A DNA stretch of 64,000 nucleotides from Pararhodobacter zhoushanensis. GTDB lineage: Bacteria; Pseudomonadota; Alphaproteobacteria; Rhodobacterales; Rhodobacteraceae. Where the stretch lies: assembly GCF_003990445.1 (NCBI RefSeq), contig NZ_REEZ01000003.1, positions 344,635 to 408,634 of the forward strand. The letters run 5' to 3'. The first letter of the stretch is position 1, and each line of letters starts with the position of its first letter. Under the pieces are notes generated by a model. That model had not been told where the DNA came from and did no database searches. It saw only the letters and a list, made by a program, of their open reading frames with translations. This document shows positions 9,684-57,872 of the stretch, piece after piece. Position numbers and translations under genes: made by a program.

Positions 9684-9781
9684 GTCGGGGGGCTGCCGCC
9701 CCCCGACCCCCCTGCCCAAAGGGAGGAGCACGCTCCCCCCTTTGGAAGCCCCCCGTGGATATTTTTCAGACAGATGATGGG
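9684..9781 (-). repeat. Dispersed double-hairpin repeat, copy a
   Basis: Read on the minus strand: head CATCATCTGTCTG, AAAATATCC, ACGGGGGG, hairpin 1 (stem CCAAAGGG/CCCTTTGG, 9738-9745 with 9716-9723), a G-rich spacer, and hairpin 2 (10-bp stem 9684-9693/9698-9707). It fills the gap between the lipoprotein and kpsC. Nearly the same 100 bases recur at 34325-34420. Confidence 0.85.
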
Positions 9782-9808
9782 CGCAGCGGCAGGCTGCGCT
9801 TTTGGCGT

Positions 9809-11839
9809 TCAGCGCCAGAGGTGGGCGTAGCTGGCGAAGGCGCCTTGCAGTTTGGCCATCGCCCGCAGGCGGGGCGAACGGCGGCCGGTTTGGCCGCTGG
9901 CGAGGCGCTCGACGGCCAGTTCGGGCGCGCAGGGTTGGCGGGTCAGCGGGTCGAGATACCGCGGGTAGGCGATCAGCGCGGCATGGGTGAGGCGGGTCAG
10001 GTCAGGGCGAGGGAAGACGCTGGTGCGGCGTTCGGGCACGGTGCCACGGTCGTCGGTCAGGCCCCAGCCTGCGTAAAACGGTGCGCCAAGGGTGGTGACG
10101 GGGATGCCGCGCAGCAGGGCCTCGAAGCCAAGGCCCGAGGTGAGGGTCCAGACCCGGTCGGCGAGGGTAAGGGCGGATTGGGCGTCGGTATGGTTCAGGA
10201 CCAGATCGGCGAGCGTTTCTGCGTCGTCCACCGTGCCGGGGCGCAAGCCCGCCTCGACATCGGGGTGGGGTTTGTAGAGCACGATGGCTTGGGGAGAGGC
10301 ATCGCGCACCGCTTGCAGAAGCGCGCGGTTGGTGCGGATGTCGGTGGTGCCGAGGCGGATCGAGGCGTCATCCTCGACCTGACCGGGGACAAGGATCACC
10401 GGCGCGTCCGGGTGCGCGGCGCGCAGGGCGGCGACCTGGGCCGCGGTGTCTGACGACGCGGGGGAGAGGTTGTATTTCGTCACGCCGCTGGCCAGAATCG
10501 CGGCACGCAGCCGGTCGGCCCGCTCGGCGCCGCCGGGCGGCAGGGGCGCAGCGATCAGCGCTTCAAGGCGGCTCTCGCGCGTGGGATCGTAGTAAATGCC
10601 GCGATCATCGACGGCCAGCGACAGCGGCGGGACCAGATCGGCCCCCAACCCGCGCGAGCGCAGAAAGCCATCCTCGATGCGCAAGCCGTTGAAATCGGCA
10701 GGGGCGGTTGAGGCCCAGGCAAGCGTCGCGCCCTCATCACCAAAGCGCACCGGTGTCTCGCGGCCAAAGAACGCCTGAATCGCCCCACGCTTCCAGCGCC
10801 GCATGCCGCGGGCGATATGACCCTTGCGGTCCTGACGGTAGGCGGTGAGGCGGGCCTCCATCTGGTCGACGACCTCTTCGAAGGCGCAAAGCCGGTCGCG
10901 CAGCGGGTCGTACCAGAGCGGATACTCCAGCATCGCCAGCGCGAACAGCTGGGTGCGGGTCAAGACGCGTTGGCGGCGCGGCACGGGGTTTTCATCGGCG
11001 CTCAGCCCCCAGCCCGCGTAGAAGGGCGCACCAAAGACTCGTGGCCGGTGGCCTGCGAGGATCGCCTCGAACCCGACCTGAGAGGCGACAGTGTACACAG
11101 CCACGGCCCCTTCCAGCAGCGACCAGGGTGAATGGGGGCCGTCGACGAACGACACAAAGCCCTGCGCATCCTTGGCGCTGTAATAGCCGGGACGCGCGCC
11201 CGCCATGCTTTCGGGGTGGGCGCGGATCAGGATGCGCGCGCCGGGGTTTTCCTCTTGCGCGATGATCAGCATTTCGCGGAACAGCCGCTCGGCGGGTTGC
11301 GGCGCGCCGTGGGTGAGCGAGGCATCGCTGCGCACCTGATCGATGATCAGCACATAGCCCGGTTCCGGCGCGGGCAGGGCGAGGTCATGGGTGTTGTATT
11401 TTGACAAATGCAGCGCGCGCAGCCGGTCGATGCCGGTGCGGGCCCGGGCGATCAGCGCGCCGTCGTCCAGCGGGTGTGATGCCAGAAGGCGTTCCAGATC
11501 AGAGGGTTGTGCAGGGTCGTAGTGCATCCCGGCGCGGTCCAGCAGCAGACCCATCGGCGGCTCGCCGCGCAAACGGCCCGGGTTGATCGAGCGGATCCAG
11601 GCGTCCTCGATGCGCCACAGAGGCGCGCCCGAGCGCGCGGCGAGGGCTTCGGCCCGGTGCGCGCGCGGGCTGTGGCCCCAGGCGAGCACGGCGTCTTCCG
11701 CACGGGGCCAGCCCAGACGCGGGCGCGCAGCGGCCAGCTCAAGAATACGGCGGATGCGGCGGGCCTGAGCCGACGGCCCCAGAAATCCGCCGCTGGCGGC
11801 GAGCAGGCGTCCGGCAAAAGGAGAGGGGTCAGTAACCAT
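9809..11839 (-). CDS. kpsC: Capsule polysaccharide biosynthesis protein KpsC (Kdo transferase)
   Basis: 676 residues, matching Escherichia coli KpsC length. It is built of two related halves: each has a strand-helix start (VLAWGHSPRAHRAEALAARSG; VRFGDEGATLAWAS), 'RIEDAWIRSINPG' or 'RIEDGFLRSRGLG', and a later GFEAIL/GFEALLRG...YAGWGL(S/T)D block. In characterised KpsC the halves are two Kdo transferase domains that add alternating beta-linked Kdo to a lysophosphatidylglycerol acceptor, building the primer for group 2/3 capsules. It lies 39 bases downstream of the export protein gene, in one minus-strand unit. Confidence 0.9.
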   Translation of the reverse strand: MVTDPSPFAGRLLAASGGFLGPSAQARRIRRILELAAARPRLGWPRAEDAVLAWGHSPRAHRAEALAARSGAPLWRIEDAWIRSINPGRLRGEPPMGLLLDRAGMHYDPAQPSDLERLLASHPLDDGALIARARTGIDRLRALHLSKYNTHDLALPAPEPGYVLIIDQVRSDASLTHGAPQPAERLFREMLIIAQEENPGARILIRAHPESMAGARPGYYSAKDAQGFVSFVDGPHSPWSLLEGAVAVYTVASQVGFEAILAGHRPRVFGAPFYAGWGLSADENPVPRRQRVLTRTQLFALAMLEYPLWYDPLRDRLCAFEEVVDQMEARLTAYRQDRKGHIARGMRRWKRGAIQAFFGRETPVRFGDEGATLAWASTAPADFNGLRIEDGFLRSRGLGADLVPPLSLAVDDRGIYYDPTRESRLEALIAAPLPPGGAERADRLRAAILASGVTKYNLSPASSDTAAQVAALRAAHPDAPVILVPGQVEDDASIRLGTTDIRTNRALLQAVRDASPQAIVLYKPHPDVEAGLRPGTVDDAETLADLVLNHTDAQSALTLADRVWTLTSGLGFEALLRGIPVTTLGAPFYAGWGLTDDRGTVPERRTSVFPRPDLTRLTHAALIAYPRYLDPLTRQPCAPELAVERLASGQTGRRSPRLRAMAKLQGAFASYAHLWR

Positions 11840-11878
11840 GGCGAACCGGGCGCGCCACCAAGGGCGCGCCCGCTGCGA

Positions 11879-15323: not shown

Positions 15324-15374
15324 CCTGAGCGACCGCGCGGAGAGCCCTGCGGGCTCAAGCCTTTGCGTGCGTTT

Positions 15375-15534
15375 GAGGGGCGCTGCCCCTCTGGCGCGTG
15401 CCGCGCCATTCACCCCGGGATATTTAGCGAGCAAAGAGCGGCGTTAACGACGGGTTAACCGCGCTTTCTTTGCTCTTCAAATATCCTCGGGGGGTGAATT
15501 CGCTGAAAGCGAAGAGGGGGGCGGAAAGCCCCCC
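15375..15534. repeat. Head-to-head pair of double-hairpin repeats, copy c
   Basis: Two repeat arms face each other between convergent ribE and acnA. Left arm: hairpin 2 GAGGGGC/GCCCCTC (15375-15391), hairpin 1 TGGCGCG/CGCGCCA (15392-15408), TTCACCCC and GGATATTT. Right arm: AAATATCC at 15479, GGGGGTGAA, hairpin 1 TTCGCT/AGCGAA (15499-15513), hairpin 2 GGGGGGC/GCCCCCC (15516-15534). GAGCAAAGA and TCTTTGCTC also pair across the centre, which contains a TTAA-N7-TTAAC box. Confidence 0.85.
15444..15459. promoter_or_regulatory. CtrA-type box inside repeat copy c
   Basis: TTAA, seven bases (CGACGGG), TTAAC: an exact match to the CtrA full-site consensus TTAA-N7-TTAAC known from Caulobacter and used in Rhodobacterales. 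It sits between the stops of two convergent genes, where a promoter is not expected, so binding may have another role or the match may be incidental. Confidence 0.4.
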
Positions 15535-15550
15535 TTCTTCTTTCCATGCA

Positions 15551-15580
15551 AAAAGGCCCCGCGCGAGGGCGGGGCCTTTT
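15551..15580 (-). terminator. Rho-independent terminator of acnA
   Basis: Perfect 12-bp stem (AAAAGGCCCCGC with GCGGGGCCTTTT), 6-base loop; on the minus strand it ends in a T run. It lies 15 bases after the acnA stop. Confidence 0.85.
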
Positions 15581-15595
15581 GTTTGTGTCAGCCGA

Positions 15596-18346
15596 TCAGC
15601 TCTTGGCGAGGTCGCGCAGCACATAGTGCAGCACGCCGCCATGCTTGACGTAGTCGACTTCGATTTCGGTATCGATCCGGCATTTCAGTTCGATCGTTTT
15701 GACCGTGCCATCCGCGAAGGTGATCGTGCAGGGCACCGTCGACAGCGGTTTGATGTCGTCGGACAGGCCTTCGATGCTCACCACTTCCTTGCCGGTCAGG
15801 CCCAGCGATTTGCGGGTGTCGCCGCCGGTGAACTCGAACGGGATCACGCCCATGCCAACGAGGTTCGAGCGGTGAATACGCTCGAAGCTTTCGGCGATCA
15901 CGGCCTTGACGCCCAGGAGATTGGTGCCTTTGGCCGCCCAGTCGCGCGACGAGCCTGCGCCGTATTCGATGCCGCCGAAGATCACCAGCGGGGTGCCGGC
16001 GTCCATATAGGCCATCGCAGCGTCGTAGATCGAGGTTTGTGCCCCGTCCGGCCCGTTGGTGTAGCCGCCCTCGACGCCGTCCAGCATCTCGTTCTTGATG
16101 CGGATATTGGCGAAGGTGCCGCGCATCATGACTTCATGGTTGCCGCGACGCGAGCCGTAGCTGTTGAAGTCTTTCACCGCGACCTGACGTTCGGTCAGGT
16201 ATTGGCCAGCCGGGGTCGTCGCCTTGAACGAGCCTGCGGGCGAGATGTGGTCGGTGGTGATCATGTCGCCCAGCACCGCCAGCACGCGCGCATCGGTGAT
16301 CGGGGCGATATGCCCTTTCTCGGCCGACATGCCGCGGAAATACGGCGGGTTCTGGATGTAGGTCGAGGTCGGCGGCCAGTCGTAGGTTTCACCGCCCGAG
16401 ACTTCCACGGCCTGCCATTTGGCATCGCCCTTGAACACATCCGCGTATTTCTCGAGGAAGGCTTCGCGGGTCACGACCCGGTCGACCAGTTCAGCGATCT
16501 CGGCATCGGTCGGCCAGATGTCTTTCAGATAGACATCCTTGCCATCCGGCGTCTGCGCCAGCGGTTCGGTGGTCAGGTCGATGTTCATGTCACCGGCCAG
16601 TGCATAGGCCACGACCAGCGGCGGCGAGGCCAGGTAGTTGGCGCGCACGTCGGGCGAGATGCGCCCTTCGAAGTTGCGGTTACCCGACAGCACCGAGGTC
16701 GCGATCAGGTCGTTGTCGTTGATCGCTTTCGAGATCTCGGGCTGCAGGGGGCCCGAGTTGCCGATGCAGGTGGTGCAGCCAAAGCCGACGATGTTGAAGC
16801 CGACGGCGTCGAGGTCTTCCTGAAGGTTGGCCGCTTTCAGGTATTGCTCGACAACCTGCGAGCCGGGGGCCAGCGAGGTTTTGACCCAAGGCTTGCGGTT
16901 CAGGCCCAGAGCGCGCGCCTTGCGCGCCACCAGACCGGCGCCGATCAGCACATAGGGGTTCGAGGTGTTGGTGCACGAGGTGATCGAAGCGATCACCACC
17001 GAGCCGTCACGGATCGCGTAATCCTCGCCCTCAACCGCGGCGGTTTTGCGGATGTCGACAGGTTTGGTCGCGACCGGGCCCTCATCGGCCATGTCCTTGG
17101 CCGCTTCGGTGATGTCGATGCCGCGGTAGCCGGCGACGACTTTCTCGAACTCTTCAGCCGAGGCGGTCAGCGCAACATAGTCCTGCGGGCGCTTGGGGCC
17201 CGAGATCGCGGGGACGATGGTGTCCATGTCCAGCGACAGGGTCGACGAGTAGATCGGCGCATAATCCGCGCCGCGCCAGAAGCCGTTCTCTTTGGCATAG
17301 GCTTCGACCAGCGCGATGCGGTCCTCGTCCCGGCCGGTCTGACGCATGTAGCGCAGGGTCTCGGCGTCGATCGGGAAGAAGCCGCAGGTGGCGCCGTATT
17401 CCGGGGCCATGTTGGCGATCGTCGCACGCTGGGCCAGCGGCAGATTGTCCAGACCTTCGCCGTAGAATTCGACGAATTTGCCGACAACGCCGTGTTTGCG
17501 CAGCATTTGCACGACTTTCAGCACCAGATCGGTGCCGGTGGTGCCTTCCATCATGCGGCCGGTCAGCTTGAAGCCGACGACCTCGGGGATCAGCATCGAC
17601 ACGGGCTGGCCGAGCATCGCGGCCTCAGCCTCGATCCCGCCGACGCCCCAGCCCAGAACGGCCATGCCGTTGACCATGGTGGTGTGGCTGTCGGTGCCGA
17701 CCAGCGTATCGGGATAGGCGACCTGCTCGCCGTTCTGGTCCTTGTCGGTCCAGACGGTCTGCGCGAGGTACTCAAGGTTCACCTGGTGGCAGATGCCGGT
17801 GCCGGGGGGCACAACGCGGAAGTTTTCAAACGCGGTCTGGCCCCATTTCAAGAACTCATAACGCTCCATGTTGCGCTCGTATTCCAGATCGACGTTGCGC
17901 TGGAAGGCGCGGGGCGTGCCGAACTCGTCGATCATCACCGAGTGGTCAATGACCAGATCGACGGGGACCAGCGGGTTGATTTTCTGGGCGTCGCCGCCGA
18001 GGCCCTTGATGCCGTCGCGCATGGCGGCAAGGTCAACCACGGCGGGAACGCCGGTGAAGTCCTGCATCAGCACGCGGGCGGGGCGATAGGCGATCTCGCG
18101 CGCGCTTTTGCCGCCGTTGTCGGCCCAGTCAGAGAACGCTTTGACGTCATCGACCGAGACGGTGAAACCGCCATCTTCGAAGCGCAGCATGTTTTCCAGA
18201 ACGACTTTCAGCGAAGCGGGAAGCTTGCTGAAGTCACCCAGGCCAGCGGCCTGAGCGGCGGGGATCGAGTAATACGCAATCGATTGACCGCCAACAGTCA
18301 GCGTCTTGCGCGTCTTGGCGGTGTCTTTTCCGACGAATACAGTCAT
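15596..18346 (-). CDS. acnA: Aconitate hydratase A
   Basis: 916 residues, normal for AcnA. Fe-S cluster cysteines are visible in ITSCTNTSNP and GFGCTTCIGNSGP; HGVVGKFVEFYGEG and TDSHTTMVNGM are active-site blocks. It isomerises citrate to isocitrate in the TCA cycle via cis-aconitate, and apo-forms may bind mRNA. ATG 18346 gives the conserved N terminus; eight extra codons upstream are possible. About 90 bases upstream of the start is a GntR-type inverted repeat (18433-18458), a plausible regulator site. Confidence 0.96.
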   Translation of the reverse strand: MTVFVGKDTAKTRKTLTVGGQSIAYYSIPAAQAAGLGDFSKLPASLKVVLENMLRFEDGGFTVSVDDVKAFSDWADNGGKSAREIAYRPARVLMQDFTGVPAVVDLAAMRDGIKGLGGDAQKINPLVPVDLVIDHSVMIDEFGTPRAFQRNVDLEYERNMERYEFLKWGQTAFENFRVVPPGTGICHQVNLEYLAQTVWTDKDQNGEQVAYPDTLVGTDSHTTMVNGMAVLGWGVGGIEAEAAMLGQPVSMLIPEVVGFKLTGRMMEGTTGTDLVLKVVQMLRKHGVVGKFVEFYGEGLDNLPLAQRATIANMAPEYGATCGFFPIDAETLRYMRQTGRDEDRIALVEAYAKENGFWRGADYAPIYSSTLSLDMDTIVPAISGPKRPQDYVALTASAEEFEKVVAGYRGIDITEAAKDMADEGPVATKPVDIRKTAAVEGEDYAIRDGSVVIASITSCTNTSNPYVLIGAGLVARKARALGLNRKPWVKTSLAPGSQVVEQYLKAANLQEDLDAVGFNIVGFGCTTCIGNSGPLQPEISKAINDNDLIATSVLSGNRNFEGRISPDVRANYLASPPLVVAYALAGDMNIDLTTEPLAQTPDGKDVYLKDIWPTDAEIAELVDRVVTREAFLEKYADVFKGDAKWQAVEVSGGETYDWPPTSTYIQNPPYFRGMSAEKGHIAPITDARVLAVLGDMITTDHISPAGSFKATTPAGQYLTERQVAVKDFNSYGSRRGNHEVMMRGTFANIRIKNEMLDGVEGGYTNGPDGAQTSIYDAAMAYMDAGTPLVIFGGIEYGAGSSRDWAAKGTNLLGVKAVIAESFERIHRSNLVGMGVIPFEFTGGDTRKSLGLTGKEVVSIEGLSDDIKPLSTVPCTITFADGTVKTIELKCRIDTEIEVDYVKHGGVLHYVLRDLAKS

Positions 18347-19604: not shown

Positions 19605-19607
19605 TCG

Positions 19608-22872: not shown

Positions 22873-22913
22873 GGGGGCCAGCCCCCTCTTGGCCATGCGG
22901 CCAATTCACCCCC
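22873..22913 (-). repeat. Dispersed double-hairpin repeat, copy f (degenerate)
   Basis: On the minus strand: GGGGGTGAA, hairpin 1 TTGGCC/GGCCAA (22889-22904), AAGAGG, hairpin 2 GGGGGC/GCCCCC (22873-22886). The AAATATCC head is replaced by a different sequence, so the copy is decayed or truncated. It lies between divergent fabG and fabF. Confidence 0.7.
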
Positions 22914-23091
22914 GGCGTACTGGGGGCAAGGTGAGGGGCAAAGCCGGGGTGCCCGGACGTTGGGCCCGGTTTTAGCAGTCCGCCGGGCGGCACGCCAGCG
23001 GGCAGGGTTCCGCCACCCATTGCGGTCGGGCTTTTCCCGACGCTAAACAATGTATATGTCGCAAAGCGAAGCCCTAGTCGGAGGATGACAG

Positions 23092-26014: not shown

Positions 26015-27287
26015 CAGCGCCCTTACCGCGCTGCCCTGGCTCTTCGACTTCTGGGCACTGCCCCATCAGCGCGCGCCTGAAGGCGCGTGGCGCACATGGG
26101 TGTGCATGGGCGGGCGCGGCGCGGGCAAGACCCGCGCCGGGGCCGAATGGGTGCGCGCGCAGGTCGAAGGGGCAGGCCCGCGCGACCCGGGTGTGGCGCG
26201 GCGGGTGGCGCTGGTCGGCGAGACGCTGGATCAGGTGCGCGAGGTGATGATCTTTGGTGAAAGCGGGATCATGGCCTGCTCGCCGCCCGACCGCCGCCCG
26301 AAATGGGAGGCCACGCGCAAGCGGCTGGTCTGGCCGAACGGGGCGGTGGCGCAAAGCGTCTCGGCGCATGCGCCCGAGTCGTTGCGCGGGCCGCAATTCG
26401 ACGCGGCCTGGGCGGATGAGCTGGGCAAGTGGAAGAAATCCGAAGAGGTCTGGGACCAGCTGCAATTCGCCCTGCGGCTGGGCGACGACCCGCGCTGCGT
26501 CGTCACCACCACACCACGCGCGCAAGGGGTGCTCAAGGAGGTGCTGGGCCTACCCTCGACCACGGTGACCCGTGCGCCCACCACCGCCAACCGCGCCTTT
26601 CTGGCCGCGTCTTTTCTGACCGAGGTCGAGGCGCGCTATGGCGGCTCGCATCTGGGCCGGCAAGAGCTGGAAGGGCAGCTGTTGGAAGATGCCGAGGGCA
26701 CGCTGTTTCCCGTCTCGTTGCTGGCCGGATGCCGGGCCGAGCGGCTGCCCGCATTCTCCCGCGTCGTGGTGGCCGTCGACCCGGCAGTCAGCGCCGGGCC
26801 ACGCTCGGACCTGTGCGGGATCGTCGTGGTCGGGGCGATGACGAAAGGCCCGGTCAAAGACTGGCGCGCGGTGGTGCTGGAGGACGCCAGCATCCGCGCC
26901 ACCAGCCCGACGCAATGGGCCGAGGCCGCGATTGCCGCGATGGACCGCCACGGGGCCGACCGGCTGGTCGCCGAGGTCAATCAGGGCGGCAATCTGGTGG
27001 AAAGCGTGCTGCGCAGCGTGGACCCGCTGGTGCCGGTGACGCAGGTGCATGCGACCGCCAACAAGAAGGCGCGGGCCGAGCCGGTGGCGGCGCTCTACGA
27101 GCAGGGGCGGGTCAGGCATGTTGCCGGTCTGGCCAAGCTGGAAGAGCAGATGGCGCTGATGACCACCAAGGGCTTTCAGGGCAAGGGCAGCCCCGACCGG
27201 CTGGACGCGCTGGTCTGGGCGCTGCACGCGCTGATGCTGGAACCGGCCAGCAGGGCGCGGCGGGTGCCCAGCGTGCGCTCGGTCTGA
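25863..27287 (+). CDS. GTA-type large terminase (TerL, ORFg2-like)
   Basis: About 474 residues. ATPase: Walker A CMGGRGAGKTRAGAEW, Walker B around DAAWADELGKW, coupling motif VVTTTPRA. C-terminal RNase-H-like nuclease: first Asp in VVAVDPAVSAG, last in DRLDALVWALHAL. In a gene transfer agent it cuts and packages about 4-kb pieces of host DNA. No ATG lies near the conserved start; GTG 25863 has TGGAGG 9 bases before it, and TTG 25878 is another option. No portal, protease or capsid gene follows; a terminator does. Confidence 0.88.
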   Translation: MNAQNLKRSPSSQEPETESWISPLQAPRCDAEWLACAPRSLREAFLAGLSDSALTALPWLFDFWALPHQRAPEGAWRTWVCMGGRGAGKTRAGAEWVRAQVEGAGPRDPGVARRVALVGETLDQVREVMIFGESGIMACSPPDRRPKWEATRKRLVWPNGAVAQSVSAHAPESLRGPQFDAAWADELGKWKKSEEVWDQLQFALRLGDDPRCVVTTTPRAQGVLKEVLGLPSTTVTRAPTTANRAFLAASFLTEVEARYGGSHLGRQELEGQLLEDAEGTLFPVSLLAGCRAERLPAFSRVVVAVDPAVSAGPRSDLCGIVVVGAMTKGPVKDWRAVVLEDASIRATSPTQWAEAAIAAMDRHGADRLVAEVNQGGNLVESVLRSVDPLVPVTQVHATANKKARAEPVAALYEQGRVRHVAGLAKLEEQMALMTTKGFQGKGSPDRLDALVWALHALMLEPASRARRVPSVRSV

Positions 27288-27293
27288 GAGACG

Positions 27294-27321
27294 AAAAAGG
27301 GGGCCATCGGCCCCCTTTCTT
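27294..27321. terminator. Bidirectional terminator between terL and the helicase gene
   Basis: 10-bp stem AAAGGGGGCC/GGCCCCCTTT with loop ATC, A run on the left and TTTCTT on the right. It can end both convergent transcripts, so terL transcription stops here. Confidence 0.85.
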
Positions 27322-27323
27322 GA

Positions 27324-29648
27324 TCAGCTTTTCGGACGGAACGGCTTGCCGCCGGGACCACCCGAGCCTGACGGCTTGCCACCGAAGGGCTTGCCACCCG
27401 GTTTCCCGGTCGGCTTGCCGGCAGGCTTGCGCGCCGGCGGCTTGCCCAGACGGGCCGAGGGGTTGCGCGCGGCATCGGGGTCGATGCGCGGGCGGGCAGG
27501 CTTGGCGCTGTCACCCGCCGGACGCGGGGTGTATTTCGCCGTGCGCGGCGCACCTTCGCCCGCAGCAGCACGCGGCTTGCGCGGACGCTCGCCATCGGCA
27601 TCCGCCGAGCGGGGCTTGTAACCCTCTCCAGCGGCCGCACGCGGCTTGTAGGGGCGATCACCATCGGCGCTGCGGGGCTTGTAGCCATCCTCGCGCGGGG
27701 CGCGGGCCTTGTAGGGCCTGTCGCTGTTCTCGCCAGCGGCGCGTGGCTTATAGGCCGGACGGTCGCTTTTCTCGCCCGCAGCGGCGCGGGGTTTGTAGGC
27801 GGGACGCTCTGAACCTTCGCCAGCCGCACGCGGCTTGTAGGCCGGGCGATCCGAGTCATCGCGCGGCGCGCGGGCTTTGTAGGCCGGACGTTCGGCATCG
27901 TCGCGCGGCGGGCGCGGGGTGTAGGCCGGACGTTCGCCGTCCTCACGCGGGGCGCGCGGCTTGTAGGCGCGCTCGCCGTCTTCGCGCGGCGCACGGGCCT
28001 TGAACGGGCGGTCACCTTCCGGGCGCGGACGCGGGGCAGGGCGGTCGCCTTCCGCCGGAGCCTCGGCGGGTTCCACCGGGATTTCCTGCTCAAGCGAGCG
28101 GGCTTCTCCCAGCGCGTTCCAGAACCGCTCGGCGCAATCGTCATGCAGCTGGGCCAGCGTGTAATCCGGGTAGATGCGGATCGCACCGATGTCGGCTTTG
28201 GTCAGATCGCCGTTACGGCACAGCATCGGCAGCAGCCAGCGGGCTTCGGCGCGACCCGTGTGGCCAACACCCAGACGCACCCAGAAGCTGCGCTCGAACT
28301 CGGTCCGGGCGCGCGGCTTGGCACCATCCGCCGACACGGCAACGACATCCTCAGGGGCCGAACGGGCGGCGAAATAGAAGCGCGAGACGGCAGCGGCCAG
28401 CTCACGCGAGCTGAAACGCTCGGTCAGCATGGTGATGATGGGCATCTCGTCGGCCTGCTCGGCAGCGCCCAGAATGGGGTCGGTCAGCAGACGTTCGGTA
28501 TCGCGGGCCGAGACTTCGGCGGCCGTCGGGGCCGAAGCCCATTCGGCATCCAGCGCGGCCATGTTCAGCAGGCGCTCGGTCTTGCGGCGGGCCGAAGACG
28601 GCACGATCAGCACGCTGACCCCCTTGCGCCCGGCGCGTCCGGTACGGCCCGAACGGTGCAGAAGGGTTTCCTTGTTAGACGGCAAATCGGCGTGGATCAC
28701 CAGTTCAAGACCGGGCAGGTCGATGCCGCGCGCCGCCACGTCGGTGGCCACACAAACGCGGGCACGCCCGTCGCGCATTGCTTGCAGGGCGCGCGAACGC
28801 TCTTCCTGCGCCAGCTCGCCCGACAGCGGCACAACCGAGAAACCACGGTTCAGCAGGCGGGCGGTCAGGTGGTTCACGGCCACACGCGTCTTGCAGAACA
28901 CCAGCGCATTGGGCGCCTCGTAATAGCGAAGCACGTTGACGATGGCGCGCTCGGATTCCTCGGCCGCAACCATCAGCGCGCGGTACGAGATATCGCCATG
29001 CGCTTCGCGTGAGGTTTCGGTGGCAATGCGGTGCGCGTCGCGCTGATAGGTGCGGGCCAGACGCTCGATCTCGGGGCGGACCGTCGCCGAGAACAGCAGC
29101 GTGCGGCGCTCTTCGGGGGCGGCTTTCAGGATGAATTCCAGATCCTCGCGGAAGCCCAGATCCAGCATCTCGTCCGCTTCGTCCAGCACAGCGGTGGTCA
29201 GCGTGGTCAGATCCAGCGCGCCGCGCTCAATATGGTCGCGCAGACGGCCGGGGGTGCCGACGACGATATGCGCGCCCCGCTCCAGCGCCCGGCGCTCGGA
29301 CCGGGCGTCCATGCCGCCAACGCAGCTGGCGATCACGGCACCGGCTTCGGCATAGAGCCATTCCAGTTCGCGGCGGACTTGCAGGGCCAGTTCGCGCGTC
29401 GGCGCGATGACCAGCGCGCGCGCGGTGTCGGGCGGGGGCAGCATGCCGCCATCGTCAAGCATGTTGTCGGCCATCGCCAGACCAAAGGCCACCGTCTTGC
29501 CCGACCCGGTTTGAGCCGAGACCAACAGGTCTTTGCCCGCGACAGAGGGGTCCACCACAGCCGCTTGCACCGGCGTCAGAGCTTCGTAGCCTTTTTCGGC
29601 CAGGGCACGGGCGAGCGGTGCGGGAAGGGGGGGAAGAGCGGCGGTCAT
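27324..29648 (-). CDS. DEAD-box RNA helicase with long basic repeat tail
   Basis: 774 residues. Helicase core residues 1-370: SAQTGSGKT (motif I), PTRELALQ (Ia), VLDEADEMLDLG (II), LFSATV (III), HRSGRTGRAGRKG (VI). Residues about 470-550 resemble the DbpA-type RNA-binding domain (RLGVGHTGRAEARWLLP...IGAIRIYPDY). The last 240 residues are about a dozen imperfect 12-13-residue repeats built on RPAYKPRA-type units with RED or GE linkers, then a Gly/Pro/Lys tail. It likely acts in ribosome assembly or RNA decay at low temperature. ATG 29648 gives the normal start. Confidence 0.92.
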   Translation of the reverse strand: MTAALPPLPAPLARALAEKGYEALTPVQAAVVDPSVAGKDLLVSAQTGSGKTVAFGLAMADNMLDDGGMLPPPDTARALVIAPTRELALQVRRELEWLYAEAGAVIASCVGGMDARSERRALERGAHIVVGTPGRLRDHIERGALDLTTLTTAVLDEADEMLDLGFREDLEFILKAAPEERRTLLFSATVRPEIERLARTYQRDAHRIATETSREAHGDISYRALMVAAEESERAIVNVLRYYEAPNALVFCKTRVAVNHLTARLLNRGFSVVPLSGELAQEERSRALQAMRDGRARVCVATDVAARGIDLPGLELVIHADLPSNKETLLHRSGRTGRAGRKGVSVLIVPSSARRKTERLLNMAALDAEWASAPTAAEVSARDTERLLTDPILGAAEQADEMPIITMLTERFSSRELAAAVSRFYFAARSAPEDVVAVSADGAKPRARTEFERSFWVRLGVGHTGRAEARWLLPMLCRNGDLTKADIGAIRIYPDYTLAQLHDDCAERFWNALGEARSLEQEIPVEPAEAPAEGDRPAPRPRPEGDRPFKARAPREDGERAYKPRAPREDGERPAYTPRPPRDDAERPAYKARAPRDDSDRPAYKPRAAGEGSERPAYKPRAAAGEKSDRPAYKPRAAGENSDRPYKARAPREDGYKPRSADGDRPYKPRAAAGEGYKPRSADADGERPRKPRAAAGEGAPRTAKYTPRPAGDSAKPARPRIDPDAARNPSARLGKPPARKPAGKPTGKPGGKPFGGKPSGSGGPGGKPFRPKS

Positions 29649-34324: not shown

Positions 34325-34420
34325 TCGGGGGGCTGCTCGCCCCCCGAACCCCCTCGCCAAAGGGGAGCGCACGCGCCCCCCTTTGGAAACCCCCCGTGGA
34401 TATTTTTAGACAGATGATGA
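34325..34420 (-). repeat. Dispersed double-hairpin repeat, copy b
   Basis: Closely similar to copy a at 9684-9781. On the minus strand: CATCATCTGTCT, AAAAATATCC, ACGGGGGG, hairpin 1 CCAAAGGGG/CCCCTTTGG (34357-34365 with 34378-34386), hairpin 2 TCGGGGGGC/GCCCCCCGA (34325-34347). It lies inside the dgcN-dgcA gene pair and nearly fills the spacer. Confidence 0.85.
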
Positions 34421-38528: not shown

Positions 38529-38567
38529 GGGGAGCTCCGGATTGTTATGGCTGGGCCACCGCCGTCC

Positions 38568-39875: not shown

Positions 39876-40048
39876 GGCACACTCCGGTTGTACGACACGG
39901 CGATGGTGGTTGCCGCAAAACGGCGATCATGTGGGCTGCAAGAGACAATCAGCACATCGGTGGCGAGGTTGGTCACACCCTCAAGCGCCATCGCGTGTTG
40001 GACGCGGACCCTGATGAGGGTCTGCTTGGTGTCGGGGTCGTCGATCAT
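39872..40048 (-). CDS. Small ORF of 58 codons coupled to RTX2
   Basis: It reads MIDDPDTKQTLIRVRVQHAM and onward to SYNRSVP, 58 residues, with strand-like alternation (TDVLIVSC, FAATTIAVSY). Its stop overlaps the RTX2 start (ATGA) and its start overlaps the stop of a 32-codon ORF in the same way. Codon use has the high third-position GC of neighbours. No family is recognised. It may be a real small protein, a translational coupling device, or a remnant. Confidence 0.4.
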   Translation of the reverse strand: MIDDPDTKQTLIRVRVQHAMALEGVTNLATDVLIVSCSPHDRRFAATTIAVSYNRSVP

Positions 40049-40143
40049 ATCGCCACCAGGCAGAGAGTCGCCGCCGCACCGTCAGACACGCCGGTCATGC
40101 CGACCGACGGGGCAGGGGCGCGCAAAACAACGGCAGCAATCAT
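40045..40143 (-). CDS. Micro-ORF of 32 codons between RTX3 and the 58-codon ORF
   Basis: It starts MIAAVVLRAPAPSVGMTG and ends in TLCLVAI, 32 residues, mildly hydrophobic. GTGGAG lies 6 bases before its ATG, similar to the sites before RTX2 and RTX4. It begins 44 bases after the RTX3 stop and overlaps the next ORF by 4 bases. It could be a leader peptide or small membrane peptide; function unknown. Confidence 0.33.
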   Translation of the reverse strand: MIAAVVLRAPAPSVGMTGVSDGAAATLCLVAI

Positions 40144-40187
40144 CTCAAACTCCACACTATTCAGGTCGCGGCCATCAAGGCCTTTGG

Positions 40188-41543
40188 CTATTCGGGTCGG
40201 ATGTCGTTGGCCAAGACCGACACGGTGAACGCGCCCTCTGGCAGGCTGTCGGTGCCTTGCAGGATCACAACCGGCTGGCCATCGGCCAGAATGCGGACCT
40301 CATGGGCAACGCTGTCTTGTTCGATGGTGATCACAGGCTCTGGGTGAGAGACGGTGTAATCCTCGGTGTCCTGCTCGTTATAGTGCAGGACCATGGTCAC
40401 GCTCTCACCCGGCTCGAAATCGGTGATCACCAGCGGATCGTTGGGCGCGTAGCCGTCACGCATCGTGCGGTTGATGGTGAAGCTGTCAGTGCCCTCACCG
40501 CCGGTCATCCGGTCGGTGATCTGGCTGGCGAAAAGCGTGTCATCGCCCGCACCGCCGTCCAGGACCGTCCCGCGCAGCACGTCATCGCCATCGCCGCCGA
40601 ACACATCGCCCCCCGCGAGTGTGTCGTCGCCGGTGCCGCCAAGGACCGTGGTCGCGCCCGTGATCTCGACGCCGAAGCCAGTGGCCGAGGCATCGGCCCT
40701 AGCGCCCATCACATCGAAGCGTTCCATGTTGGCGAAATGCAGCGTGCCGCCCTGCGTGTCGGTCAATACGCCCGAGCCGGTGGCGTCAACGACCAGCGCA
40801 GCCAGCGCGTGCCCCTCGTCGCTATTGACCTCCAGCAGATCGCGTCCGTCGCCGCCGTCGATGAACATACCCTCATCCAACGCGTCGCTCGCCCAGATCG
40901 ACAGGTCGTCATCGCCGTCGCCCAGATTGACCTGATGGGCCGCGTTCGTCAGAGAGACCAGATCGCGCCCTGCGCCGGTATCAACCGCGACCCCGCGTTC
41001 CCAGAGGTCCATCTCGACCACATCCATGCCCGACCCCAGCGCATAGCGCTCGAACCCGTCCAGCGTCACCGCGCGATCCGACAGCGGTGACGTGCCGGCG
41101 TAAGCATTGGTTTGGCCGATATAGAGGTGCAGGTTCTCGCTCATGCCCGAGGCGTCGAACAGATCGCCATCGCCCTCACCGCCGTCGAGCAAGGATTGCT
41201 CGAACCCGCTGATGTTGCCGTTCGCGTCATAGAGCGTGAGGGCGTCGAAGCCGTCATTCAGCACCAGCGTATCATTGCCGTCGCCGCCGTGAACCTCGTT
41301 GATGCCCGCGCCGCCATCCAGCCAGTCGTCGCCGCCGTCGCCCATCAGGGTGTCGTCGCCAGCGCCTCCGATGATCGAGTCATTGCCGTCAAGGCCCTGA
41401 ACCAGATCATTGCCGTCGCCAGTCTGGAGTGCGTCATCGCCATCGGTGCCGGTGATGTCTTCGTCGGTCTCGACGGAATCAGAGTCGCCGCCATTCAGGG
41501 AAACGGCGAGAACAAGGGCGAGAAACGCAAACGCAATAACCAT
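40188..41543 (-). CDS. RTX calcium-binding repeat protein 3 with N-terminal membrane helix
   Basis: 451 residues, paralogue of RTX1 along its whole length: helix VIAFAFLALVLAVSLNGG, RTX block about 30-95, DASGMSENLHLY with [12 protein letters not shown], a middle domain ending ASATGFGVEITGATTVLGG, a second RTX block, and C-terminal VITDFEPGESV / VRILADGQPVVILQGTDSL. ATG 41543 is preferred over a start eight codons earlier because the helix then begins at residue 2 as in the other copies. It probably begins a transcript reaching RTX1. Confidence 0.87.
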   Translation of the reverse strand: MVIAFAFLALVLAVSLNGGDSDSVETDEDITGTDGDDALQTGDGNDLVQGLDGNDSIIGGAGDDTLMGDGGDDWLDGGAGINEVHGGDGNDTLVLNDGFDALTLYDANGNISGFEQSLLDGGEGDGDLFDASGMSENLHLYIGQTNAYAGTSPLSDRAVTLDGFERYALGSGMDVVEMDLWERGVAVDTGAGRDLVSLTNAAHQVNLGDGDDDLSIWASDALDEGMFIDGGDGRDLLEVNSDEGHALAALVVDATGSGVLTDTQGGTLHFANMERFDVMGARADASATGFGVEITGATTVLGGTGDDTLAGGDVFGGDGDDVLRGTVLDGGAGDDTLFASQITDRMTGGEGTDSFTINRTMRDGYAPNDPLVITDFEPGESVTMVLHYNEQDTEDYTVSHPEPVITIEQDSVAHEVRILADGQPVVILQGTDSLPEGAFTVSVLANDIRPE

Positions 41544-41780
41544 CGGGAACTCGGAACTACACACCACACAGTTGCAGAATTGAGGACATTGCGCGCTTGA
41601 GTCAATTTAATTCAACATTATGAAATTGCGTTGCAAAATGCGATTGGAAGGCTGCAGCGGAAATTGTTTCCCTTGTGGAAACTGGATGGCCAAAGTTGGA
41701 TAATTGTCGCGCGAAAGCCTCGAATCCCGGTGCGTCCGGCAACCGCTGTCCCCGCAAGACCCGCTTTTCGCCCGCGCATT

Positions 41781-41818
41781 AAAAAACGCGAAGGCGCTTG
41801 CGCTGCCTCCGCGTTTTG
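41781..41818 (-). terminator. Terminator of RTX4
   Basis: On the minus strand a hairpin with arms AACGCGGAGGC and GCGCCTTCGCGTT (one bulge or mismatch) is followed by six T. It lies 23 bases after the RTX4 stop, so RTX4 is a separate transcript from RTX3-RTX1. The rest of the 297-base gap is AT-rich and should hold the RTX3 promoter; no clear boxes were found. Confidence 0.75.
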
Positions 41819-41840
41819 TCGTGATCGTGGCTGAGGGGCG

Positions 41841-42893
41841 TCAGGCCGCCGCTTGAGTCCAGCTTACCTGCAGGTCGGTATTGGCATCGAAGGTGGTCGT
41901 GCCATTCAACGTGGCCCACAATTGACCGCCGACATAGACGTTGACCAGATTGTTCTCGGCGTCGGTTTCGGTGGTCACGTCGGGCGCGGTGTCGCCGGTA
42001 TGCTCGATGTTCAGCACCAGCGTATCGGTGCCAGACACGAAGTCGGTCACCACCAGAGTGTCGCCGCTGTCAGTGTCCGAAAAGCGCTCGTCCAGTTGGA
42101 CGACATCCGCGCCGCTGCCAGTGGTTACAGTGTCCAGACGATCGGCAAGCAGCGTGTCGTCGCCGATGCCGCCATCCATCGAATCCGCGCCCGCGCCGCC
42201 GTCCAGACTGTCGTTACCGGCGTCGCCCATCAGCGTGTCAGCACCCGCGCCGCCCAGCAGCACGTCGTTCCAGTCGCCGCCGCTCAGGCTGTCGTTGCCG
42301 TCACCGCCGTCCAGCAGGTCCCGTCCGGTGCCGCCCAGAAGCGTGTCATCGCCGTTGCCGCCATACAGCGAATCGTCGCCCGCGCCGCCGTCCAGCAGGT
42401 CATAGCCGGCTTCGCCGAACAGCCGGTCATTTCCCTGACCCCCGTTCAGCGTGTCCATGCCATTGCCGCCATAGAGCGAATCCCAGCCGTTGCCGCCGTC
42501 GAGCGAGTCATCCCAGTCGCCGCCATACAGCGTGTCGGCACCGTCGCCCCCGTCCAGCGTGTCGCGGCCACCTTCACCCCACAGCAGGTCATTGCCTGCG
42601 CCGCCCAGAACCGAGTCGTCGCCACGCTCGCCGCGCAGGAAGTCATCGCCGTCGCCGCCGTCCACGGTGTCGTTGCCAGAGCCTGCGTTCACCTCGTCCT
42701 GACCGGCGCCGGCAGAGAGGTCGTCGTTACCGCCAAAGCCATTGATCAGATCATCGCCGTCGGTGCCGATCAGCGTGTCGTCGTCATTGGTGCCGTCCAG
42801 ACTGTCAACGGTGTCGACTTCGCCACTATCGCTTCCCGTACTGCTCAGTCCCAGAACAACCGCGAGTAAGAGGAAAACACCGATGTAAGCCAT
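41841..42893 (-). CDS. RTX calcium-binding repeat protein 4 with N-terminal membrane helix
   Basis: 350 residues, the most regular member. Helix AYIGVFLLLAVVLGLSS, acidic linker, then about 23 uninterrupted RTX nonapeptides (residues 45-260, units such as GGDGDDFLRG and GGNGDDTLLG) and the C-terminal module (VVTDFVSGTDTLVLNIEH, VNVYVGGQLWATLNGTT). It lacks the FERYALGSG domain of RTX1/3. GGAG lies 7 bases before ATG 42893. A CtrA-type box (42948-42963) lies 55-70 bases upstream. It has its own terminator. Confidence 0.9.
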   Translation of the reverse strand: MAYIGVFLLLAVVLGLSSTGSDSGEVDTVDSLDGTNDDDTLIGTDGDDLINGFGGNDDLSAGAGQDEVNAGSGNDTVDGGDGDDFLRGERGDDSVLGGAGNDLLWGEGGRDTLDGGDGADTLYGGDWDDSLDGGNGWDSLYGGNGMDTLNGGQGNDRLFGEAGYDLLDGGAGDDSLYGGNGDDTLLGGTGRDLLDGGDGNDSLSGGDWNDVLLGGAGADTLMGDAGNDSLDGGAGADSMDGGIGDDTLLADRLDTVTTGSGADVVQLDERFSDTDSGDTLVVTDFVSGTDTLVLNIEHTGDTAPDVTTETDAENNLVNVYVGGQLWATLNGTTTFDANTDLQVSWTQAAA

Positions 42894-42947: not shown

Positions 42948-42963
42948 TTAATCTTTCGTTAAC
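42948..42963. promoter_or_regulatory. CtrA-type box upstream of RTX4
   Basis: TTAA, TCTTTCG, TTAAC: an exact CtrA full-site consensus. Its distance from the RTX4 start (55-70 bases) fits a promoter-proximal site. GTTATAAAATGG nearby (42932-42943) is AT-rich. CtrA in Rhodobacterales controls motility, gene transfer agents and surface functions. Confidence 0.6.
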
Positions 42964-46677: not shown

Positions 46678-46707
46678 TCCTTTCACGGATCGGTTGAGAG
46701 TTCAGAC

Positions 46708-46733
46708 AGGGCCGTCCTTCGGGGCGGCCCTTT
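46708..46733 (+). terminator. Terminator after rplT
   Basis: 10-bp stem (one G-T pair) closed by a TTCG tetraloop (46718-46721), then TTTCG. It lies 30 bases after the rplT stop. Confidence 0.85.
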
Positions 46734-46755
46734 CGCATGGGGGTGAGCGGGCAGG

Positions 46756-46828
46756 GGGGGGCTTTCTGCCCCCCTCTTCGGCTGTCGCCGAATTCACCCC
46801 CCGAGGATATTTAAGGACAGATGATGGC
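46756..46828 (-). repeat. Dispersed double-hairpin repeat, copy d
   Basis: On the minus strand: CCATCATCTGTCC, TTAAATATCC, TCGGGGGGTGAA, hairpin 1 TTCGGC/GCCGAA (46777-46792), GAGG, hairpin 2 GGGGGGC/GCCCCCC (46756-46774). The core is nearly identical to the right arm of copy c. It lies between rplT and the glycosylase gene, both converging on it. Confidence 0.85.
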
Positions 46829-46832
46829 GCGC

Positions 46833-47357
46833 TCAGAAGGGCTTTGAGAGATGCCTTGAGCCGGGCAGGCCGAAGCGCATCGGCCAGTCGGCGGCTTTGG
46901 TGATGCCGATGCGGGGGCCGGTCAGCCAGGTCTGGGGCGGGTTCAGCGCAAGGTGGAAGTCCGGCGGGCCGAAGGCGCGGGCGTCATCGTCGCCGGTGAT
47001 GCCGAGGGCCTGCGCGAGCATGCCGGGGCCTTTGCACAGCGCCTTTGCCGGGCCGCGGCGGGCCTGCATGGCGGGGAGGCCGCTCAGCGGCTCGAGCGCA
47101 CGGATCAGGACGGCGTGGCCGGGCAGGCCGACGACGTTGAGGCACCAGTGCAGCCCATAGATCCGATAGACATAGGCGTGACCGGCGGGGCCGAACATGG
47201 CCGCGTTGCGGCGCGTGGGGCCGGGGAACGAGTGCGAGGCGGGGTCGTCGGGGGCGTAGGCCTCGGTCTCGGTGATACGGCCTGCGCAGCCGCGCACGGT
47301 GAGGACGGCACCCAGCAGGCGCGGGGCGAGCCGGGCGGCGGGAAGGGCGAAGCTCAC
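46833..47357 (-). CDS. DNA-3-methyladenine glycosylase (AAG/Mpg family)
   Basis: 174 residues. The single-domain alkyladenine glycosylase signature is clear: RITETEAYAPDDPASHSFPG with the catalytic Glu, TRRNAAMFGPAGHAYVYRIYG with the intercalating Tyr, and CKGPGMLAQALGIT. It removes alkylated purines from DNA. It starts within the last 4 bases of yjbQ, so the two are coupled. Length is slightly short of the usual 190-200. Confidence 0.9.
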   Translation of the reverse strand: MSFALPAARLAPRLLGAVLTVRGCAGRITETEAYAPDDPASHSFPGPTRRNAAMFGPAGHAYVYRIYGLHWCLNVVGLPGHAVLIRALEPLSGLPAMQARRGPAKALCKGPGMLAQALGITGDDDARAFGPPDFHLALNPPQTWLTGPRIGITKAADWPMRFGLPGSRHLSKPF

Positions 47358-54562: not shown

Positions 54563-54586
54563 GTCTTGATCACAGTGCAGACGCCG

Positions 54587-56571: not shown

Positions 56572-57623
56572 TGCTCCAGCTCGGCCAGTCGGTCGGCCTG
56601 ATCCTGCGCAATCAGCGGCTCGATCACCGGGTCCAGATCGCCGGCGACGATCTGCGCCAGCGCGTAGAGCGTCAGGTTGATGCGGTGGTCGGTCAGGCGG
56701 CCTTGCGGGAAGTTATAGGTGCGGATGCGTTCCGAGCGGTCGCCCGACCCGACCTGCGCCTTGCGGTCGGCGGCGCGGGCATCTTCCTGCCGGCGGCGCT
56801 CAAGGTCGAACAACCGGGCGCGCAGCACCTCCATCGCCAGCGCGCGGTTGCGGTGCTGGGATTTCTCGGAACTGGTGACGATGATGCCGGTGGGGATATG
56901 GGTGATGCGCACGGCGGAATCGGTGGTGTTGACGTGCTGACCGCCGGCGCCCGAGGCGCGCATGGTGTCGATGCGCAGATCGCTGTCGGGGATGTCTAGA
57001 TCGACCTCGGACGCTTCAGGCAACACGGCGACGGTCGCAGCCGAGGTGTGGATGCGCCCGCCGGATTCGGTGACGGGCACGCGCTGGACGCGGTGGACGC
57101 CGGATTCGAACTTGAGCCGGGCGAAGACGCCTTCGCCCACAACCCGCATGACGGCTTCGCGCAGGCCGCCCAGCTCGGTCTCGGCGAAGGCGATCATCTC
57201 GCAGCGCCAGCCGCGGGTGTCGGCATAGCGCTGGTACATGCGCAGCAAGTCGGCGGCGAAAAGCGCAGCCTCATCGCCGCCGGTGCCGGGGCGGATCTCC
57301 AGAATAGCGGGGCGCTCGTCGGCGATGTCCTTGGGCAGAAGCGCGCGCTTGAGCTCGGCCTCCAGCGCGGGCAGGCGCTGGTCGAGCGCGGTGAGCTCGT
57401 CTTGCGCGAGAGCCCTCATTTCGGGGTCTGCAAGCATAGCCTCAGCCTCGACCCGCTGCGCCTGCGCGCCGTGCCATTCGGCGATGGCGGCGGTGACGGG
57501 CTTGAGCTCCTGATACTCGCGCCCCAGATCGGCCAGACGCGACGGATCGGCCCCGGCGGCGAGCTGTGCTTCGAGATACTCGAAACGGCGGGTGATCTGG
57601 TCAAGGGTGTCTTTGGGCAGCAT
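56568..57623 (-). CDS. prfA: Peptide chain release factor 1
   Basis: 351 residues. GGQ loop in [18 protein letters not shown], stop-codon reading region [18 protein letters not shown] with the RF1-type Pro-x-Thr. It releases protein at UAA/UAG. ATG 57623 gives the standard [10 protein letters not shown] start; the frame continues upstream through repeat copy e. Confidence 0.97.
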
Positions 57624-57700
57624 GAAGCGGATGTGCCGGTGCGGGGCGGTTACGTCAAGGGGGAGCGGCGCTCGGCCCCATTGAGGGGCCTCGCGCCGCG

Positions 57701-57872
57701 CCGGGCTGCCGCCCGGACCCGCTCGGGAGGATTTTCCATCCTCCCGAACCCTCCTGGAGGATATTTTCAGACAGAAAATGGTGGTTAACGATCGGTTAAC
57801 CGCACTTTCTTTGCTCTTCAAATATCCTCAGGGGGTGAGGCCCGGCACGGGCCGAGGGGGCAGAATGCCCCC
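57701..57872. repeat. Head-to-head pair of double-hairpin repeats, copy e
   Basis: Left arm: hairpin 2 CCGGGC/GCCCGG (57701-57716), hairpin 1 CGGGAGGAT/ATCCTCCCG (57724-57746), GGATATTTTCAGACAGA. Centre: GGTTAACGATCGGTTAACC. Right arm: TTTCTTTGCTCTTC as in copy c, AAATATCC at 57820, GGGGGTGA, hairpin 1 GGCCCG/CGGGCC (57839-57853), hairpin 2 GGGGGC/GCCCCC (57856-57872). Confidence 0.85.
57785..57800. promoter_or_regulatory. CtrA-type box inside repeat copy e
   Basis: TTAA, CGATCGG, TTAAC, an exact CtrA full-site match in the centre of the head-to-head repeat, 162 bases upstream of prfA. Function unproven. Confidence 0.4.

Follow-up and report, generated by a model that had tools for sequence, protein, structure and literature searches.

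Introduction

The BoxC, PIT and TM_ECO elements have been described as intrastrand triplexes that are G/C-rich and intergenic, occupy variable loci and, in vitro, are stable and block DNA polymerase (PMC4666352). The role of DNA triplexes in bacteria is an open question, and the E. coli motifs of that paper, which fold in vitro, are assigned no function there. The repetitive extragenic palindromes (REPs), bacterial interspersed mosaic elements (BIMEs) and REPINs are short extragenic palindromes of high copy number that form inverted doublets and lie in convergent or co-directional gaps (PMC3733652, PMC3116915). Here we analyze a repeat family found in a 64,000-nucleotide stretch of the Pararhodobacter zhoushanensis genome (contig NZ_REEZ01000003.1, positions 344,635 to 408,634 of the forward strand; hereafter the window), which is part of contig C23 in a genome of 4.83 Mb and 56 contigs. 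An earlier note had reported eight arms of a double-hairpin repeat at six loci of this stretch, and all of them are present. We give a probability of roughly 0.55 to the reading that they are class I (purine-motif) intrastrand-triplex repeats, arranged in BIME-like pairs, that would act as DNA-level polymerase roadblocks at gene ends.

Like the BoxC, PIT and TM elements as described in PMC4666352, the repeats combine three blocks (third-strand purine, purine and pyrimidine) with mirror symmetry, are G/C-rich and intergenic, run to tens or hundreds of copies with inverted pairs, differ sharply in copy number between relatives and change in sequence locally. They differ from TM_ECO, which has the class II block order, in being of class I with the third strand first, and whereas the published ITxF search used loops of 1-6 nt (PMC4666352), hairpin linkers of 12-26 nt occur in 49 arms of the P. 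zhoushanensis genome and 58 arms of other genera. The core AAATATCC, the exchangeable heads and the bias toward gene 3' ends are features of the Rhodobacteraceae repeats that set them apart from BoxC, PIT and TM. The TM_ECO consensus, CCCTCNCCC-N3-6-GGGNGAGGG-N3-GGGNGAGGG, has no exact match in the collected loci (2.4 Mb with overlaps), and the main text of PMC4666352 makes no mention of Rhodobacter, Paracoccus, Roseobacter or Alphaproteobacteria.

The repeats share with REPs, BIMEs and REPINs their palindromes, copy number, doublets and gaps; however, no Y1 transposase was found in the P. zhoushanensis genome, the sites are shared with a related species, and the tetramers GTAG and CGTC, counted anywhere in the arm rather than at the foot position, occur in 2 and 24 of 86 arms, below the 9.2 and 37.3 expected. 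Intrinsic (Rho-independent) terminators are likewise GC-rich hairpins just after stop codons, but nearly all arms have no U-tract, and a third G-tract is tied to the hairpin in length and sequence. The HRC-8-4 motif is similar in being structured and exclusive to the Rhodobacterales; it is described as lying primarily between ccoNOQP and ccoGHIS with no genome-wide dispersal, a distinction that we draw by description and not by sequence (PMC8632094).

Anatomy of the repeat arms

Copies were located with the pattern AAATATCCN{1,6}GGGGG on both strands, using the reversed pattern as a control; an exact 57-base element pattern gave no match in the contig search. The own-genome sample, 387,538 bases with 86 arms at 66 loci, is made up of the window and 40 stretches that surround copies listed on contigs up to C8, two extra sites among them. 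These copies were picked by the exact core, so that core invariance holds by construction and the sample is enriched for elements. Genes were called with a home-made codon-usage gene finder and not taken from a validated annotation. A one-mismatch core search adds five AAGTATCC matches; the hairpin unit is missing at one of them, L079 397.

An arm reads head, 2-3 nt, AAATATCC, 1-4 nt, G-tract, linker, G-tract, loop, C-tract. The plan proposed in the earlier note (hairpin 1, a G-rich spacer, hairpin 2) does not hold in all copies; the unit common to them runs from the first G-tract to the C-tract. There are four discrete head types, TCATCTGTC, TTTTCTGTC, TCTTTGCTC and AACTTTATGC, with few single-base variants. 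Linkers are of two kinds, short ones of <12 nt and small hairpins, and by type the 86 arms divide into 42 B, 34 A, 7 C and 3 other. In B-type arms the linker is TGA-hairpin-GA; in A-type arms it is short, for example TTTCCAAA, and a second unit usually follows downstream. When near-core partners are added, 67 loci can be considered for pairing, and 23 of them are paired, every one head-to-head. In the 20 exact-core pairs the distance between cores, with the cores themselves counted, is 63-72 bp in 19 and 164 bp in one; most pair centers contain GTTAAC, often as GTTAAC-N5-GTTAAC.

Linker hairpins number 49 (30 distinct) in the own genome and 58 (55 distinct) in other genera, and their stems reach at least 4 pairs in 100% and 97% of cases, respectively. 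The mean stem is 6.2-6.3 pairs, against 3.3-3.5 when the 3' halves are re-dealt; because real stems exceed re-dealt ones, pairing of the linker hairpins is under constraint. An RNAalifold structure (alignment model R1) missed the linker hairpin and was not used for searching, pairing being scored by script instead. Predicted folds are stable in four copies. Further copies exist beyond the window and their pairing is kept, so that neither outcome named in the earlier note as refuting the family (no other copies, or pairing lost in most of them) was observed; the hairpin 1 stems listed there are correct. Its conclusion that covariation shows structure to be conserved is sound as far as stem pairing goes but incomplete: stems can also change as whole units, and a three-tract mirror code exists besides.

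The three-tract mirror code

Tracts could be parsed in 78 of the 86 own arms and in 126 of 134 arms from other genera. The first and second G-tracts are equally long in 90% of the parsed arms in both sets, compared with a shuffled mean of 57% (maximum 73%) in the own genome and 45% (maximum 60%) elsewhere, and all three tracts are of one length in 69% and 73%, respectively. The second unit of A arms follows a like length rule (r 0.84-0.90; 19 of the 34 A arms parsed). These equal-length blocks stand on one strand in the class I order of third strand, purine, pyrimidine.

Equal tract length is predicted both by competition of the two G-tracts for the C-tract and by a triple helix, and the two readings part only where tracts contain A: under competition the first tract would have to be a direct copy of the second, and as an antiparallel purine-motif third strand it would have to be the mirror image. 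An internal A is present in both tracts of 25 of the 342 distinct arms; 19 of these fit the mirror better, none fits the direct copy better and 6 are ties, which favors the triplex; counted as distinct tract pairs, 6 of 10 are mirror and 4 are ties. Examples are GGGAGGA with AAGGAGGG, in the orthologue of L044 in the related species G311, and GGGGGAAG with AGAAGGGGGAG. The L044 arm itself has pure G tracts in P. zhoushanensis, and its G311 orthologue reads GGGAGG / GGAGGG / CCCTCC, with the changes at mirror positions. At L053 2553 the three tracts change together between orthologues, from 6/6/6 to 5/5/5.

The bases flanking the tracts point the same way. Where the stem foot is extended by an A-T pair, the first tract is followed by A or T in 79 of 80 distinct linkers. 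B-type TGA linkers make up 56 of these 80, and among the other 24 the rule holds in 23. Where the foot is extended by C-G, T-A or G-C, A or T follows in 18 of 27 (Fisher p 1e-5). Of 118 flank positions, 113 agree with the purine-motif code, in which G stands on G-C and either A or T on A-T, and 84 agree with Watson-Crick pairing. A cruder overall mirror score gave 77 mirror and 8 direct of 97 in the own genome; it is biased by the flanks, and the interrupted-tract test is the one we rely on.

Three other structures were considered and set aside. Competing Watson-Crick pairing of the two G-tracts, as in a bistable RNA switch, has folds within about 2 kcal/mol of each other (means of -19.8 and -17.7 over 41 B copies) and has the mirror order of the interrupted tracts against it. 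A pyrimidine-motif RNA triplex on the other strand is disfavored by the occurrence of T as well as A opposite A-T pairs. As for a G-quadruplex, B and C arms have only two G-tracts (by eye).

Placement at gene ends

As the earlier note had claimed, the repeats lie between genes, with none of the 86 sampled arms inside a predicted gene. The 66 sampled loci fall between convergent genes in 33 cases and between co-directional genes in 33, with none between divergent genes. Expressed per gap of at least 60 bp, elements occupy 33 of 42 convergent, 33 of 104 tandem and 0 of 50 divergent gaps in this element-enriched sample (Fisher 4e-17 and 4e-7), and in the window alone 3 of 6, 2 of 18 and 0 of 10; a changed-core copy at 22873, which falls outside the 0/66 count, does sit in a divergent gap. 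In other genera, where the placement sample consists of 80 of 100 loci obtained with a pattern of ATCTGTC head plus core, a copy is present in 24 of 41 gaps between convergent genes, in 54 of 197 between co-directional genes and in 6 of 69 between divergent ones. An attenuator role, one of the possibilities raised earlier, looks less likely with no sampled locus in a divergent (5') region, though 33 loci are in tandem gaps upstream of a next gene.

At the 99 gene ends that face an element, hairpin 2 is met first at 71, and the median distance from stop codon to element is 15 nt. Canonical terminators are rarer in convergent gaps with an element (15/66) than in those without (12/24; Fisher p 0.019), and are not depleted in tandem gaps (9/33 with, 20/92 without). 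The arms themselves reach a canonical-terminator score in 6 of 86 cases in each direction, with hardly any U-tracts, and terminator-like hairpins with T-runs adjoin some copies (46705-46735 and 15552-15583, by eye).

In the 388 kb sample, 20 of 21 occurrences of TTAAN7TTAA are within 75 bp of an element core. The GTTAAC-N5-GTTAAC of the pair centers is a putative CtrA-like box, TTAA-N7-TTAA. The sole occurrence away from an element, at 42948-42962 in the window, is just upstream of the minus-strand gene 41841-42893 and may be an ordinary CtrA-type site.

Distribution, retention and exchange

The search pattern matches the own genome 108 times on the forward and 221 times on the reverse strand, the latter partly double-counted because G6 sites were tallied twice, and the reversed pattern gave 0 and 0. 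This abundance beside an empty control excludes chance, and the copy number is of the order of 200 arms. Matches occur in 208 of 295 Rhodobacteraceae genomes (controls 0-2), and in a class sample of 385 genomes there are at most 4 per genome outside the family. The repeat family is thus largely confined to the Rhodobacteraceae. Within the genus, 18 of 19 genomes have matches, with counts from none upward and some genomes incomplete; in this comparison the reverse count is highest in the own genome (113 forward, 231 reverse) and the forward count in G311 (130 forward, 152 reverse). Among the matches listed, the ATCTGTC head with the core occurs in Gemmobacter, Pseudogemmobacter, Pararhodobacter, Tabrizicola, Rhodobacter, Fuscovulum, Xinfangfangia, Rubellimicrobium and Pseudorhodobacter, and elsewhere in the family the plan is retained but the heads are different, for example CTTCTTTGGG or TTTTCGC. 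The expectation that related elements might exist undescribed across Rhodobacterales is borne out in that they are widespread in the Rhodobacteraceae, and we found no prior description of the repeat family in the literature searched; the ITxF database of PMC4666352 may list some copies. A contig labelled Novosphingobium (L274, JAPCWB010000002.1) carries the Rhodobacteraceae head and core, through either transfer or contamination. Within the genus, contigs C11 and C55 of genome G222 (L133, L136) have, at or near element sites, a sister form of the repeat whose core is AAATACTC and whose head is TCACTTTGTC or TCACCTTGTC. In a search for a phage or plasmid origin, a 186-base query matched none of 50,697 phage records and had 6 partial plasmid matches that covered 31-44% of it; we rejected both origins.

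Of the 66 loci, 43 can be compared with G311, where the genes on either side were found together in a single region with 89-96% flank identity, and the element is kept there at all 43 (57 arms). At one arm, L062 13247, only the hairpins are recognizable in G311, and at L071 9561 an insertion has entered the first hairpin loop with the head kept. In the reverse test of 41 G311 loci, 39 elements are present and two were scored absent. One of these two is in fact present, and in the other copy the tract next to the core is degenerate; neither direction of the comparison with G311 gave a clean empty site. Arm conservation averages 0.93-0.95, compared with about 0.93 in the flanking genes. Farther afield, G222, which is 70-88% identical over matched blocks, lacks the 9684 copy. 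At L062 16789 the hairpins are recognizable in four of five other genus members with flanks 71-75% identical, next to drifted cores like AAATACGC (by eye), and at L062 13247 the core is kept in G295 and G305 and not in G297 and G304. Order breaks within contigs in the G222 comparison coincide with element sites at 15324-15552 and 46733-46882 of the window; a third break, near 27237-27390, has no element, and two further element sites are contig ends. The best explanation for the shared sites is that the elements have probably been kept at gene 3' ends by vertical descent.

The earlier note had suggested a REP-like element moved by an unlinked transposase. REP-like and structure-conserving the repeat is, but movement by such an enzyme receives no support: the REP transposase Y1_Tnp has no match in the own genome, although the same search was positive in E. 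coli and 4 other control genomes. Y1_Tnp occurs in 30 of the 295 family genomes, which have a median of 2 element matches, 5 of the 30 having 10 or more.

Sites are retained while parts of the arms are exchanged. Among the 57 orthologous arms, 18 differ in which of the four head types they carry, and L062 13247 has no recognized head in G311. The 18 head-switched arms are on average 95% identical over the 45 nt after the core and 67% identical over the 33 nt before it, compared with 93% and 87% in 37 same-head arms; two unrecognized arms are left out of this comparison. Two head-switched arms, L063 (71%) and L064 12470 (84%), have changed in the arm as well. In the window pair 15425/15479 both heads and the center differ in G311, and at L054 6387/6438 the left head is kept and the right half beyond GTTAACC differs. 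The exchange boundaries in these sequences are AAATATCC and GTTAAC. The CATC and TTTT heads, which replace one another, differ at two neighboring bases, with no intermediate among the sampled heads. The left linker hairpin of L054 6387 has changed as a unit, from TTGGCC to TGCGGC, and is paired in both genomes. Because stems can change as whole units between orthologues, stem covariation is half the story; template switching can change whole stems in one step (PMC8794818).

Competing explanations

The reading that we prefer, a DNA roadblock, uses both the tract code and the placement, which is why we prefer it. On the strand read head-first, the head and AAATATCC would be followed by the third-strand G-tract, a linker (short or a small hairpin), the purine strand, a loop and the C-tract. 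When this strand becomes single-stranded during replication, transcription or supercoiling, the G/C hairpin would form and the first G-tract would lie antiparallel in its major groove. Arms occurring singly or as head-to-head inverted pairs around a palindromic center, much as in BIMEs, would most likely act as polymerase roadblocks between converging or consecutive genes. Polymerase stalling may in turn render the site prone to mutation and so lead to the exchange of tract lengths, linker hairpins and head and center cassettes. Several observations weigh against this picture. We infer the triplex fold from sequence alone, and the E. coli PIT and TM elements are reported to have no terminator activity, with in vivo footprinting giving no support for a stable triplex (PMC4666352). 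The arms are related by descent and orthologues of both species were counted, so that the counts are not independent, and the mirror evidence comes from four or five families of tracts. Over 160 arms of other genera the cruder mirror score is weak, at 85 mirror, 56 direct and 19 ties; the tracts there are mostly pure G and hence uninformative on this point. In C-type arms and many TCC-type arms the length rule is all that can be seen, and some orthologous tract changes, such as those at L045 2398 and L047, are not concerted. As to placement, other genera hold copies in 6 of 69 divergent gaps and, at 2 of 96 loci, inside predicted genes, and the orientation bias is weak (tandem singles 16 vs 9, p 0.23, here; 43 vs 25, p 0.04, pooled with other genera).

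An RNA-level 3' element, in which double hairpins terminate transcription or protect mRNA 3' ends and pairs serve both convergent genes, is a live rival that we nevertheless regard as unlikely. The transcript 3' stabilizer role suggested in the earlier note belongs here, and the repeats are indeed mostly at transcript ends: hairpin 2 is met first and close to the stop codon at 71 of 99 gene ends, all 23 pairs are head-to-head so that both genes meet hairpins first, predicted folds are stable, and terminators are partly replaced in convergent gaps. However, terminators are not depleted in tandem gaps, U-tracts are rare, terminator-like T-run hairpins adjoin some copies, and purine-motif triplexes do not form in RNA (PMC4666352), which leaves unexplained a mirror code that fits a DNA triple helix better. 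It is improbable that the repeat is above all a binding platform, with the head or center and AAATATCC as protein sites, the hairpins as scaffolding and the four heads as alternative operators. The clustering of TTAAN7TTAA near cores, the discreteness of the heads and their switching at orthologous sites, and the presence of AAATATCC with the ATCTGTC head in many genera (selected by that pattern), with different heads in others, agree with it, but the sample is element-enriched with an exact core by selection, singles persist with no center, the CtrA link is putative, and the tract code is not explained. A selfish, REPIN-like or miniature inverted-repeat transposable element moved by an unlinked transposase could account for the inverted doublets, for copies up to 89% alike at unrelated sites, for the wide copy-number spread within the genus (some genomes being incomplete), for the site that is empty in G222 and for the missing core of L062 13247 in G297 and G304. 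It is very improbable given that G311 shares all 43 of the comparable sites, that the reverse test gave no clean empty one, that GTAG is below expectation (2 vs 9.2), that a Y1_Tnp search had no find in the own genome (other transposase kinds were not searched for) and that Y1-positive family genomes have a median of 2 matches, a figure for which Y1-negative genomes were not summarized for comparison. Hardly credible is the absence of any function, with hairpins kept perfect and tracts equalized by template switching and slippage during replication. Stems and tracts can change as units and the template-switch mechanism is documented (PMC8794818), but template switching yields reverse complements rather than mirror images, the placement departs strongly from random, and conservation of the arms is close to that of the flanking genes.

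Returning to the DNA roadblock, a bolder and distinctly doubtful extension of it would have a class I triplex unit, in which the linker may be a hairpin, selected as a roadblock at hundreds of gene 3' ends and joined to an exchangeable cassette of a few discrete types with AAATATCC and GTTAAC as its limits. Different trans-acting factors would read this cassette, and a dedicated or structure-driven recombination would switch it. One natural family here brings together compensatory three-strand changes at orthologous sites, a gene-end bias and apparent vertical retention. Its hundreds of natural variants make mirror order, tract length and linker comparable and the function directly testable. 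The switching of head types at sites that stay in place poses a further puzzle of its own.

The window loci

An Rfam covariance-model scan of the window gave no match at the gathering score; the sub-threshold matches at 15340-15600 reach about half their cut-off or less. The core AAATATCC is present in seven of the eight arms, and the head CATCATCTGTC is common to three copies (9764, 34405 and 46812), as had been claimed. At 9684..9779, on the minus strand, a single A-type arm with this head has its core at 9757-9764, followed by a predicted first triplex unit, GGGGGG / CTTCC / AAAGGGGGG ... CCTCCCTTT, and then a second; its G311 orthologue has 5/5/5 tracts. The single A-type arm at 34325..34420 (minus) likewise has two units in a row by tract lengths, and its G311 counterpart carries the head CATTTTCTGTC.

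The inverted pair begins with a B-type left arm at 15366..15425 (minus), with G4/G4/C4 tracts and the linker hairpin TGGCGCG/CGCGCCA, and ends with a B-type right arm at 15479..15538 (plus), with 6/6/6 tracts and TTCGCT/AGCGAA. The exchangeable center between them (15426..15478) has heads GAGCAAAGA...TCTTTGCTC around GTTAAC-N5-GTTAAC, in place of which G311 has GACAGATGA...TCATCTGTC; in each arm the 45 nt that follow the core are unchanged between the two genomes. In G222 a B arm is kept at the end of the gene 15596(-), with another head, another linker stem and 5/5/5 tracts. The B-type unit at 22873..22921 (minus) is the arm that has AGTACGCC for AAATATCC; its head is CTCACCTTGCC, it lies between divergent genes by our own gene calls, and G311 matches the surrounding 401 bases at 97.5% identity. 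The single B-type arm at 46752..46825 (minus) has head CATCATCTGTC, and a terminator-like hairpin and T-run stand just before it on the plus strand (by eye).

Between the last two of these loci, the minus-strand genes at 37089-42893 are full of 27-nt repeats and, by appearance, may encode RTX-type calcium-binding repeat proteins; about 38459-41485 of this region has no colinear match in G311.

In the second pair, the left arm at 57700..57766 (minus) has the interrupted tracts AGGAGGG / TTC / GGGAGGA / loop / TCCTCCC, the first being an exact mirror of the hairpin purine strand. The pair center (57767..57819) reads GACAGAAAAT ... GGTTAACGATCGGTTAACC ... TCTTTGCTC, and the right arm at 57820..57879 (plus) is B-type with 5/5/5 tracts and the linker hairpin GGCCCG/CGGGCC. 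Further dispersed hairpins, for example GCGGCGCGAGGGGGCTCGATGCCCCCGAGCGCCGC and CGCGCCGCGTCAGCGGCGCG, follow many arms, also at 57880-57930, and apparently belong to other repeat families. A hairpin unit of about 33 nt beside the L047 2445 element is present once here and as four tandem copies in G311 (L185, after hairpin 2), and G311 has an extra hairpin copy beside L062 619.

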